Origin: Salvelinus alpinus
Lineage: Eukaryota > Chordata > Actinopteri > Salmoniformes > Salmonidae
Assembly (NCBI RefSeq): GCF_045679555.1
Contig: NC_092091.1
Span: 15,399,572 to 15,463,571 of the forward strand
DNA length: 64,000 nt
Direction of reading: 5' to 3'
The translations under genes and the position numbers were made by a program. This document shows positions 31,667 to 37,700 of this stretch, piece after piece. Positions within the stretch are counted from its first letter, which is position 1. Every line of letters starts with the position of its first letter. Under the pieces are notes generated by a model. The model searched no databases. It saw only the letters and a program-made list of their open reading frames with translations, and was not told the DNA's origin.

Positions 31667-31786
31667 ATGCCTGTCCTTGTGGTCAAGGACGGGCCCGGTC
31701 ATGGCACCCAGGTTCCCGCTCAATTCCAGAGGATCCCCATTCCACTCCTCAGCCCTACCTCAGACTGCACTGGCAAGACTGTGAAG
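31667..31786 (+). CDS. pot1: pot1 coding exon 1 (N-terminal extension)
   Basis: The exon begins at ATG 31667 with G at -3, and encodes [15 protein letters not shown] and onward to CTGKTVK. The preferred donor is AAG|GTGTGT after 31786, phase 0. A second phase-0 donor, CAG|GTCAAA after 31801, would add five residues but has a poor +3 base. The frame stays open to a stop at 31841. An acceptor-like CAG at 31650-31652 lies just before the ATG, so this exon may start at 31653 and be preceded by a non-coding 5' exon. It lies only about 15 bases downstream of a SINE. No homologous human sequence exists for comparison, so this is the least certain exon. Confidence 0.7.
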
Positions 31787-34700
31787 GTGTGTCTCGGTCA
31801 GGTCAAACCCTTCCGCTACGCTTCGTTTCTTATATCTCCATAAATCCCCCTCTTCTTCCTTTCTTACATTCTCGCTCCTGTCCTCCACTGCCTGCTTTTC
31901 TTTTCCACTCTCTGTCTATTTATCCATGTTCCTCTCTCCACAGTTTATTTTGTGTTGATGTGTTTTTTTTTTTACCTTATCTTTCTTTCAAGTACACTAT
32001 TGGCAGATGATTGTAAAGCAGACAAAGCAATTAACAACAAATTCACTCCCCATCCTCCATTTTCCGTCTAAGGGAGTTATGTGTTAATTGGCTTGTGGAC
32101 TTGACCGATTTGACACTCATCGATTTTTATATGTTTTACCATTCATCTAAAGTTTTGTTTTTCTGCTATTCTGCCAGGGGAGAGTAGTTCACAAAGGGCC
32201 ATTGGTATCCATGGGAGAAGACAACTATGTCCTGAAGACTGTGATTCAAGGTATTGTATATGAGAAAACATTTAGGCCCAGAAGGATGTAGGCCTATACA
32301 ATGAAGGAGTGACTGCCCAATCATGCATTGGTGGAATTTCCTTGGAGGGCATGTAGCTGGCTGTGTTAGATCTCAGCTGGCTCGATTGTCTCACTCCCAC
32401 TGTAAGCCGTTCAGCTGGAATGGATCTTAATAGGATTGTCGAAAAAGGCCATTTCTTCTTTGTTGTGTCGTCCATGCTACATTTATCCCTCTGCATTATG
32501 ATTAACATTCATACAGCAGCACTGCTTATTCAGAGAGAGTTATCTCGCTTGTTAATACAGTACTTCAAACCCATTTGAAATATGCCTTGTTTCCTTGTCT
32601 TGTGTAATAATTGTATTACCACAGCAATTGTCAGTCGTGACAGAATGATCAGTGCTATTTTTTTATAATGTTTTTCACTTTGTTCTTCTGCTGACATTTA
32701 CACAACCCAGAGCGGTTGGAATTATAGGGAAGTGCTAATTGTCTTAGTAGTGTACAGAGCATTTCAGAGATGCTGATTGCAATGTCCTTTTAGAGCAACT
32801 TTTTCACTCAGGCCCCCCTTCCAGCACCGGGGAACATCCCTCGCATGCCACGTCTATTTCTATGGGCACAGGCACTGTTCATGACACAAACTGTTCACAC
32901 CCCGCTTGTTGGTGGAGAGAATATGTTGCAGGTTTAAAGCTTATTTCCTGCAATTCTATACATTTTGCCATGTCCAATGTGTGTTCATGTGATATTTGAG
33001 TGACCCAAACATTACTACAAAATCTATGGGCTGAAAAACATTAGCTGACATGGGCTAGTTGATCTGGACATTTCTGACAAGTTATAGCTCTCTAAGATAT
33101 GCAATGACTGACAGGAAAACGGATTACACTCTATCCAATTTTGAACTTGCACCTTGTGCAGAGAGGAGTTGGGTGACATTTTAATTGAACTGTAGCCCTA
33201 ATAAGAGAATACCCTTATAAAGCCGTACAGGCTCTGAGGTATTTTCTGTATATGTCTTGCATCTGTCAAATTTGCTGCGTGTGTACACTATCTTCTGCTT
33301 AAGAGTTGTCTCTGCCTCCGTCAGAAGAAGACTCCCAACAGAACATGTCCCCGGAACACTCATCCATCAATATCATCCTGTTTGGTGCGCTGGCGAAGGA
33401 CTACTCCGAATCCGTCAGTCAAGGGGTAGGTCTCCGACCATTCCCTATAGGATCTCAAACACAGTGTAGTAATGGCCCTGATTTGTACTTACTGAGGAAG
33501 TGGGCACAAAAATCTTAATTGGAATGTAATGGACGTTAATGGTGTAGGTGGCTGTTTTATTCGACAGAATATAATGCTGCATTTTGTAATTCACTTGTAA
33601 CTGAATGCATATCCTCAGTTCCATATTGTAGCTGCATGCTTATCCTCAGTTCCATATTGTAGCTGCATGCTTATCCTCAGTTCCATATTGTAGCTGCATG
33701 CTTATCCTCAGTTCCATATTGTAGCTGCATGCTTATCCTCAGTTCCATATTGTAGCTGCATGCTTATCCTCAGTTCCATATTGTAGCTGCATGCTTATCC
33801 TCAGTTCCATATTGTAACTGCATGCTTATCCTCAGTTCCATATTGTAGCTGCATGCTTATCCTCAGTTCCATATTGTAGCTGCATGCTTATCCTCAGTTC
33901 CATATTGTAGCTGCATGCTTATCCTCAGTTCCATATTGTAGCTGCATGCTTATCCTCAGTTCCATATTGTAGCTGCATGCTTATCCTCAATTCCATATTG
34001 TAACTGTATGCTTATCCTCAGTTCCATATTGCTTTGAGGAGTGGTATAATCTTCAAAAGAGATGATTGGAGCGTTAGCTGCTGATCGGAGCTCTAGTCAT
34101 TGTGAGCAAAATTGCAACACTCCCAATGAGAGAGAGCGTCTTTCTTGTGGAGCGAGTTCTTACACAATTATCGTCTACATTGAAGTAGATTAAGTCAACA
34201 GTTTGATCTTAGGGATGCTATTCAGAGTCTGAGGATCAGACAGACTCTTGTTAAGTGCAAACACATAGGGATGTTAGTCATTTTGGTTGTTTACGTCCTC
34301 TAGTCTGTAATAGTGTTGACGTCCTACATGCTCTCTCTGTAACAGTGTTGACATGCTCTGTAACGGTGGTGACTGATCAGCAACTATTTTTATTAACCTT
34401 GATAAAATGACACTCAAACCCAATGATAGGATTCAGGCATCCATGTCATTTAAGACCAATGCACAGACAAAGTTGAATGAGCTGAGTGATGCACCAGTGT
34501 TAGACAGGCTGACCTATTGTCTCAGAACACCCCTGAGAGGAGCAGAATCATCACATTCTGAGCAGACGTAGCGGGAAAAGGGATTGGCTATCATGGCTGT
34601 AGAGTACTCTGTCAAACAATGGTTTGTTTAATCCACTGTAACATGATTACTTTGTATCTCTCCCTTCCCTTTGTCTGCTGTATGAGTTATGTCAGAGAAC

Positions 34701-37700
34701 ACTGTTAAACCATTTGGAGGACAGTCACACACTGCTCCCCAAGCAAAATACAACTGGCTTATCTCTATTTTGAGTGTAGCATATTACTCACAAGCCTGTA
34801 TTTCTTACCACAACATCTGCTATATTAAACGGTCTGTGCTATACTTGGGACTTCCCTACCCCATTCAATTTTAAATGGTTGGTTAAGGTTAGGGTAAGAG
34901 TTAGGTTAGGGACATCCCACGTATCCCAGATAGCATTGACTTATATTAAACCCATTTTACATCGTTTATAATATATTTTTTTACATTTGGCGGGGGGGGG
35001 GGGGGGGGCAGTGTTATCTCACCTCTCACCACACCACATAACTCTGTCTCTGTTGCATGCGTTTGTTCCCTCAGGACATGCTGCTGGTGACTGGCTTCAC
35101 TGTGGGCAATTCTCCCACAGCTCAAAAAGACAAGCTCCATGCCTGTAACCTGCAGCTAGCTGGAGATGATGCCTGGATGTATGTGAGTACATATTCAGGG
35201 AAGGGTTCCTCTGTTGGTTGTTAATTAAAGGGAGGGTTTAATAAAATATGACCCTTAGTTTTCTGAAATGTTTTTCTCTGTGTCCTAGGTGTGGCCATCT
35301 ACTGTAAGCCCGAGAGCATCTGTACCCCGCAAAAGAACCTCTCCAGCCAGCACTGAGGTCAGTCTGTGAACTCATTAGCTCAAAGACCTTGGTTTTATGG
35401 AGGCTGTCAGATGCCGTATTGTGCCTGTCTGAAAAATCTCATGTCATCAGATGTTCATCCCAATGTGAACTTGCGTGTGTCATGTTTTGCAGGATCTTTT
35501 TGGTACTGAATACATGTAAAATAGCTGGCCTATGGCCCTTCCACTTAAATCACTCTTACTGATCCCAAAACAATTTTACTCCGTCCAATCGATTCATTTA
35601 GGGACTGACCATATCCAGTCTCTACAACTGACTGTTGTTCTCTCTGAAGTCATTTACAAATAGACATTCTCTCTTTACTTAAATTGTTGTCCGATCCTGA
35701 ATGGTAATGCAGTAGTGTTTGTCTTCAGGTCACTAAGGCAGTGAAGGTGGTTAAGTACACCTATGTCCCACTGAGCGACCTGAAGCCTGGGGTAGTGGTG
35801 AATGTCTACGCTGTAGTCACCTTCTTCAAGCAGCCATTCCGGACCAAGGGGACAGGTAAGTCAACCTGCCCTGCAAATGCACTAACATGGTATAGACAAA
35901 TATGCTGATATTCCACCAGGCCAATGTTGAGCTCAGTTTAAGGTGTTGGCTCTGTGCTAAGATACTCTACAGGCAGAAAAAGACACACTTCCTACTCAGC
36001 AAAGCACTTTGAAGTCCATATTCAACCAACAGGCTGGTTGCTATGACTACTGGACCCCCTGACATGCTGCTGCGAGATAATAAGGGGTTTGTGTCTAGGT
36101 GGTGTCAGCCAGGGTAGGTTGTGTGGGGGTTACTGTACTGTGATCTCATTAAACAAGCATTTGTAGAGGCGTAGGGTTTGGCGGGCAGGGGAGGTGAGGT
36201 GGAGGCTGGCAATGGGAAAAAGAGGACCTCTCTCTGCACCCTCTCACTAAGCACCCAACATCACAGGGTACATATGAGTCCTTGCGGTGTTGCTTAGCCC
36301 TTCGACTCGCGACCTTTGACTTGGAAGTGCTGCGACTGCCTTTTTAACTGGTCTGCCCTTGCCGGGAGTCAGGCAGTGTGGCGAGGTTTGTTCACACAGA
36401 AAAAAAACAACCTTGCTGTAGAAAGCGCAGAGGGGCACGCAGAGTAGTTGTCCGAGGTAAGGGAACCTCGCTCTTTTGCTGTTATACGAACATACTCTGT
36501 TCTATCCTGTCCTCATAGCACCTATTCTCTGACTCCTTTCTTGTTCTCCTCCTCTCCTTCTCCTCTTTTCTTCTCCTTCTCTCCCCCTCTCATATCCATC
36601 TAATATTCTTAATCTCTAGCTTCTCCAACTCTTATCACCAATGGTTTTATTATGGTTGTCCAATAATCTCCAGAACAGAACAACCGGATACTCAACATTT
36701 ACAGTTCTCTCTTTATTGCTACTATTCCAAACCAATGACTTTTTAAAATTGTACAATACAAACACATTGTAAAAATTACAAGGTAAATTACAGCACCCTG
36801 TATTAAACCACAGTCACTGAGTCCTCGTGCGGTTAATCTCTGCCTTAACACACCCTAAGCATTGATCGAGCATTAGATCTTGTCATGCAAGCTGACATAA
36901 AGTGGTGAAAAATCAATCCTCATCCTACTCAACCAACCCTGTAGATATCTGACTTGATTTTGATGTACTGTACAATGTGCTGGGCCATCTCATCCAATTG
37001 AATCAGAGGCCCAGAATGGAGAAGTTGGTTCTTTATTGTGTCTGGAGGGAAAACTCTGCATGAAAGATCCATTTTGAATGCAAGTGCCTGTGATGCAAAT
37101 GACAAAAAAAGCAATTATAAACAGGGTGGTTCGAGCCCTGAATGCTGACTGGCTGACAGCCGTGGTATACAGTGGCTTGCGAAAGTATTCACCCCCCCAT
37201 GGCATTTTTCCTATTTTATTTCCTTTCAACCTGGAATTAAAATTGATTTTTGGGGGGTTTGTATCATTTGATTTGAACAACAGACCTACCACTTTGAAGA
37301 TGTAAAATATGTTTTATTGTGAAACAAACAAGAAATAAGATTAAAAAAACAGAACTTGAGCATGCATAACTATTCACCCCCCCCCCCAAAATCAATACTT
37401 TGTAGAGACACCTTTTGCAGCAATTACAGCAGCAAGTCTCTTGGGGTATGTCTCTATAAGCTTGGCACATCTAGCCACTGGGAGTTTTGCCCATTAAAGT
37501 AAAAACTGCTCCAGCTCCTTCAAGTTGGATGGGTTCCGCTGGTGTACAGCAATCTTTAAGTCATACCACAGATTCTCAATTGGATTGAGGTCTGGGCTTT
37601 GACTAGGCCATTCCAAGACATTTAAATGTTTTCCCTTAAACCACTTGAGTGTTGCTTTAGCAGTATGCTTAGGGTCATTGTCCTGCTGGAAGGTGAACCT

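Follow-up and report, generated by a model that had tools for sequence, protein, structure and literature searches.

The POT1 gene of Salvelinus alpinus lying in the window (the 64-kb stretch of NC_092091.1 analysed here, in whose coordinates all positions are given) has five coding exons ahead of the one in which OB1 starts, which raises the question of whether the N-terminal extension they encode is a genuine part of the protein, whether it is an additional OB fold and, if so, whether it reads telomeric DNA or recruits a partner. In the sections available to us of Zahid et al. 2022 (PMC9119445), an extra N-terminal POT1 domain is named OB-N and Myler et al. 2021 is credited with finding it in most metazoan POT1s; the same sections place it in front of OB1 in basidiomycete POT1s also.

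The POT1 gene and its N-terminal extension

POT1 is encoded on the forward strand by 19 coding exons, 18 of them inside the window, with GT-AG introns throughout and no stop in the reading frame; the protein has 799 residues, of which 751 are encoded within the window, and the last exon (window-equivalent 64506-64651, forward strand) begins 506 bases beyond the window end. Coding exon 1 (31667-31786, residues 1-40) supplies the start codon, the leader MPVLVVKDG... and the beginning of OB-N, exon 2 (32178-32250) the strand-like segments GRVVHKGPL and NYVLKTVIQ, exon 3 (33325-33425) the strand-like INIILFG with a 13-residue helix-like stretch, exon 4 (35075-35182) the strand-like DMLLVTGF and a further 15-residue segment, and exon 5 (35289-35357) a basic Ser/Pro linker of 23 residues. 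OB1 starts in exon 6 (35729-35855), continues in exon 7 (41202-41332) and ends in exon 8 (43098-43391), where OB2 starts, to proceed through exon 9 (44237-44392) and end in exon 10 (57492-57676). Then come exon 11 (57786-57865) and a 27-nt exon 12 (58006-58032), assigned from reading phase and splice borders only. Exon 13 (60086-60242) belongs to the C-terminal part and probably encodes the first half of OB3, exon 14 (60818-61023) extends into the C-terminal insert domain, to which exons 15 (61875-62010) and 16 (62120-62202) also belong, and exon 17 (63459-63553) carries the second half of OB3, being followed by exon 18 (63715-63820).

Downstream of the extension the protein is intact. Pfam profiles identify OB1 (POT1, PF02765, residues 169-298, E 4.1e-33), OB2 (POT1PC, PF16686, residues 312-461, E 4.6e-35) and the C-terminal insert (POT1_C_insert, PF21375, residues 604-689, E 6.1e-20), and an OB match (tRNA_anti-codon) is obtained over the whole POT1 with E 2.8e-7, its best stretch (residues 697-720) failing on its own.

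The extension amounts to 157 residues from exons 1-5 (31667-35357, forward strand), and a single frame is held across all five introns into the OB1 exon at 35729-35855, with GT-AG borders. The initial annotation had described an extension of about 164 residues joined to OB1 in a consistent phase, and both points hold: position 8 of the human POT1 chain 3kjo aligns with a fish residue that has 165 others ahead of it. In uniform random sequence, 157 codons would run on without a stop with a probability of ~5e-4, the matched splice phases not yet being counted in this figure. The N-terminal extension of this fish POT1 is confirmed as real. An acceptor-like AG is found at 31651-31652, 14 bases 5' of the ATG, and exon 1 is therefore probably just the first coding exon; the G+C profile 5' of the ATG displays no strong rise of the promoter kind.

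The genome also carries a second, decayed POT1 copy, with a relic of exon 4 on C9 that is 85% identical over this exon and its flanks, compared with 75-89% in colinear blocks. Since this copy is decayed, the gene in the window is probably the only working one. The decayed copy being uninformative on constraint, its use for assessing selection on the extension was rejected.

A probable OB fold ahead of OB1

The extension had been proposed to contain an extra OB fold with an OB-like order of strands. The quoted strand-like segments are indeed located between residues 41 and 135 (residues 41-49, 56-65, 79-85, 98-106, 121-127 and 131-135), and a profile search against OB-fold families, which the initial annotation had called for, returned a weak match to the Pfam SSB family (PF00436), with E 4.4e-4 for residues 36-136 and 20.7 bits, which is below the curated cut-off of 26 bits. 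The match spans residues 40-113, and its E value becomes 0.0014 when residues 1-157 are used and 0.013 when the search is made within the 751-residue protein. Scrambled controls gave no SSB match at E up to 1, whether shuffled (0 of 9) or reversed (0 of 1); one of the shuffles hit an unrelated family with E 0.056. A profile built from bacterial SSBs (81 sequences, 17 after thinning at 90%) gives OB-N 4.5 bits, a score that 10 of 2000 shuffles also reach; the 27 positions it aligns, ILFGALA...GDMLLVTG, form an ILFG-helix-GD block to which the product of exon 3 contributes.

Other searches of OB-N returned little. The non-OB Pfam family Cwp8_D3 (E 0.039-0.092) was rejected, being weaker than SSB and gone from the list for the longer protein. 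Against PDB chains (phmmer, E up to 10) no OB-fold chain was retrieved, the single match, Nic96 at E ~1, being dismissed as chance, and searches of PHROGs and NCBIfam retrieved nothing. BLASTP detects no similarity between OB-N and OB1 of the same protein, so that a recent duplication of OB1 is an unlikely source of the extension. The weak SSB match and the published OB-N favour an OB fold for the extension, very probably the fourth, ancestral one that is already known from animal POT1.

Alternative readings of the extension

Very little weight attaches to the view that the extension is a long tail, partly disordered or otherwise folded, and has no OB fold. In its favour are the SSB match lying under the curated cut-off, the value of 0.039 reached by Cwp8_D3 and the lack of a PDB match by phmmer; nevertheless, the strands follow an OB-like order around an SSB-like core that none of the 10 controls reproduces, and the OB-N published in PMC9119445 (available sections) occupies the same position in the family. 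Still less probable is that exons 1-5 are absent, or sometimes absent, from the transcript, with translation initiated in exon 6 or close to it, or from an internal ATG of exons 2-4. Such a start would fit with a 5' UTR exon not having been located and with the in-frame ATGs within exons 2, 3 and 4, from which shorter proteins containing OB1 could begin; however, phase and GT-AG borders hold at all five introns, and neither exon 6 nor the seven open codons directly 5' of it have an in-frame ATG before OB1. Moreover, a zebrafish POT1 cloning primer covering nine codons from the ATG reads M-P-V-E-K-V where Salvelinus has M-P-V-L-V-V, M-P-V being common to both.

The reading that comes closest to being a competitor, although an unlikely one, is that of a fourth DNA-reading OB fold, which would lengthen the telomeric footprint or contact the duplex beside the junction held by OB1. 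The OB/SSB-like sequence and the adjoining of the basic linker to OB1 speak for it. In SSB, a phenylalanine and a tryptophan contact DNA; the Phe of LFG is kept in OB-N, and the SSB tryptophan, one place ahead of the aligned block, would on extension of the alignment stand opposite a serine. The acidic character of the fish OB-N also disfavours DNA reading, though OB2 is acidic too. The location of human OB1 at the ds-ss junction (PMC7617103, available portion) agrees with a further DNA reader, whereas the OB-N of Ustilago maydis Pot1 displays no appreciable binding of G-strand DNA and binds Rad51 (PMC9119445, available sections). The initial annotation had expected a fourth fold to alter either how ends are read or which partner is recruited, and the Ustilago results make the former less likely and favour the latter.

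A probable role in partner docking

We hold with considerable confidence that exons 1-5 encode OB-N and a basic linker to OB1, and that the part most likely played is in docking a partner rather than in reading DNA. OB-N would dock partner proteins beside OB1 without itself reading telomeric DNA, and would thereby be next to the domain with which human POT1 holds the 5' phosphate at the ds-ss junction; the leading candidate partner would be a recombination factor of the Rad51 kind, Rad51 itself being bound in Ustilago, and the basic linker may contact DNA or hold a nuclear signal. The calculated charges are pI 5.1 and net -4 for OB-N, pI 9.1 and net +5 for OB1, and pI 11.1 and net +6 for the linker; OB2, in the DNA-binding half, has pI 5.6, and acidic charge thus does not separate OB-N from OB2. 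An acidic OB-N and a basic linker agree with a docking role, without proving docking. By analogy, we infer that the fish OB-N may share the role of its Ustilago counterpart. More tentatively, and with less than even expectation, we suggest that it could act as a docking arm at the junction pocket of OB1, bringing in a Rad51-like recombination or replication factor, and that this arm was lost in primates and rodents. Should this be correct, the picture drawn from human and mouse POT1 would be a reduced one, from which a layer of telomere control has been lost.

The existence of OB-N is no news, and the fish OB-N is real but already known. Its interest lies in the fact that human POT1 is without a domain reportedly kept by most animals: a fish with OB-N and probably a single working POT1 is a usable setting for studying the function of this domain in vertebrates, and also bears on whether results on fish POT1 transfer to humans. 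Among the best literature matches, whose coverage is thin for subscription journals, no vertebrate study of OB-N function was found; the available portions of PMC5309834 and PMC10246852 hold nothing on OB-N, and the zebrafish POT1 authors, in the available portion of their report, described just two N-terminal OB folds.

Comparison with known POT1 and SSB proteins

Reportedly, only primate and rodent POT1 proteins lack OB-N; with the domain present in most metazoan POT1s, the fish gene thus keeps the ancestral state, and the loss in mammals suggested by the initial annotation is too wide. The other part of that suggestion, that the domain is ancestral and not a novelty, is in line with the available sections of PMC9119445. 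The closest solved structures found are those of human POT1 (PDB 1xjv, 3kjo, 8sh0 and 7qxb), which match OB1-OB2 with E ~1e-68. Like human POT1, the fish protein carries the C-terminal insert domain and also gives a match for OB3; unlike human POT1, it has OB-N, as the human chain aligns only from position 8 with nothing OB-N-like ahead. Bacterial SSB (PF00436) resembles OB-N in a weak profile match and the 27-position block, but the match is under the curated cut-off and OB-N is not an SSB. In the available sections of PMC9119445, Ustilago maydis Pot1 likewise has an extra domain ahead of OB1, there of ~120 residues, whose loss leads to shorter telomeres, and basidiomycete extensions measure ~200-350 residues, compared with 157 in Salvelinus. 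Rad51 binding and absent DNA binding are features reported there for the Ustilago OB-N, whereas the fish domain is known from its sequence. The Rad51 role is known from one fungus only. The nearest likeness is to the metazoan OB-N, an OB fold before OB1 in a four-OB POT1, from which the fish extension, compared by position and strand order, does not differ.

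The POT1 gene and its N-terminal extension

Most of the POT1 gene lies on the + strand of the window, where 18 coding exons (31667-63820) encode 751 residues without a stop, all introns being GT-AG and in phase; the last exon falls just beyond the window, at L108:777-922 in a further stretch of the genome, which gives a full protein of 799 residues. Pfam recognises the C-terminal insert domain as well as OB1 and OB2, and gives a match for OB3; the OB1-OB2 part matches human POT1 structures at about 1e-68. Coding exons 1 to 5 (31667-31786, 32178-32250, 33325-33425, 35075-35182 and 35289-35357, all +) contribute 157 residues ahead of the OB1 exon. 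The initial annotation had placed these exons upstream of OB1 and joined to it in frame, which is confirmed by the phases, the GT-AG borders and the absence of stops. A spurious reading of exons 1 to 5 is unlikely: all phases fit, and in uniform sequence 157 successive codons would lack a stop with a probability of about 5e-4.

The OB1 exon does not supply a start: past the extension, an in-frame methionine first occurs within OB1, and the intron frame open into exon 6 comprises only seven codons after a stop, with no ATG. Shorter forms might in principle begin at the methionines that ATGs of exons 2, 3 and 4 encode. A cloning primer for zebrafish POT1 reads from its ATG as M-P-V-E-K-V-N-N-S (PMC3032778, Table 2), whereas the window protein begins M-P-V-L-V-V-K-D-G; the three common residues, M-P-V, are at most suggestive. 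In that paper only two N-terminal OB folds are counted in zebrafish POT1, and a search for a third is not evident there.

Several repeats were also observed in the window. A short dispersed, SINE-like repeat (31465-31637; matching 41437-41524 and 46061-46231) stops about 14 bases ahead of the acceptor-like AG preceding the POT1 start codon, and may have reshaped that splice site. The intron between exons 3 and 4 of the extension holds a minisatellite (33595-34031; 31-base unit, 14 copies, 97% matches), and the intron that follows exon 12 (27 nt) holds another (58152-59407; 46-base unit, also called as 93, 27 copies). At 3142-6782 both strands carry long open frames of short Pro/Glu- or Arg-rich repeats, resembling an expanded minisatellite, and the frame 5538-6539 (-) within it includes what we take to be a Tc1-like transposase stretch.

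A decayed second copy

Searches of the whole genome (2.37 Gb; window at C6:15399572-15463571) with three parts of the POT1 protein matched only contigs C6 and C9 among the best candidates scored. The C9 copy (about 47394570-47439750, minus strand), whose relic exons fall in stretches L098, L008 and L009, is decayed: within the 80 kb searched, pieces of 7 of the 18 coding exons were found (4, 5, 9, 10, 11, 17 and 18), with frame-breaking indels in exons 5 and 9 and a stretch missing from exon 10. The other 11 (1-3, 6-8 and 12-16) were not found there by blastn at E 0.01, a threshold hardly reachable for the 27-nt exon 12 in any case. Given this decay and the restriction of matches to C6 and C9, the window gene is probably the sole working POT1. 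The window and the C9 copy have 28 blocks in common in the first 50 kb, many colinear and others scattered repeats; from this common order, and from the genome duplication known in salmonids, we infer that the C9 copy is a remnant of that duplication.

Fold of the extension

The extension, proposed to be an extra OB fold (OB-N), was compared with sequence families. The Pfam SSB family, which has an OB fold, matches residues 1-157 at E 0.0014, residues 36-136 at 4.4e-4 and the 751-residue protein at 0.013; residues 36-136 also match a second OB family (0.085) and the non-OB Cwp8_D3 (0.039). None of nine shuffles and one reversal matched SSB at E up to 1, and one shuffle matched an unrelated family at 0.056. 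All these OB-N matches are below the Pfam curated cut-offs. Our own SSB profile (17 bacterial sequences, from 81 before thinning at 90% identity), narrow because its members, to judge by record titles, are nearly all Enterobacterales and Vibrio, scored 4.5 bits on OB-N, a value equalled or exceeded in 10 of 2000 shuffles; the OB1 and OB2 domains of this POT1 scored -1.3 and -1.8. With this profile, 27 positions were aligned between E. coli SSB and OB-N. Two sequence searches of the PDB with the extension did not find an OB fold. An OB fold is thus probable on the sequence matches, and the literature on OB-N makes it likely.

Possible role and comparison with known OB-N domains

We favour a role for OB-N in protein docking next to OB1. 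OB-N is acidic (residues 37-137; pI 5.1, net -4), and the Ser/Pro linker behind it (residues 138-168) is basic (pI 11.1, net +6); OB2 is likewise acidic (pI 5.6), and charge alone is therefore not decisive. According to PMC7617103, OB1 of human POT1 grips the ds-ss junction by its 5' phosphate, so that a module ahead of OB1 may be near the duplex side. There, OB-N would recruit or restrain a partner near the junction, the candidate being Rad51, the sole one for which data were found, from a fungus.

Myler et al. reportedly predicted a fourth OB fold in all metazoan POT1s except those of primates and rodents, and are said to have proposed an RPA70-like ancestor. Among the papers listed in our search of a largely open-access literature, no vertebrate study of OB-N function was present. 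Zahid et al. 2022 (PMC9119445) describe OB-N, an extra N-terminal OB fold, in most basidiomycete Pot1s, and report its identification by Myler et al. (Genes Dev 35:1625) in the majority of metazoan POT1s. In their account, Ustilago OB-N does not bind DNA appreciably and binds Rad51, as OB1-OB2 also does, and its deletion shortens telomeres without obviously impairing growth in otherwise normal cells. The biology of the extension is already described, and the initial reading of an ancestral rather than novel extra fold is sound: a fish POT1 with OB-N is as predicted by Zahid et al. and Myler et al.
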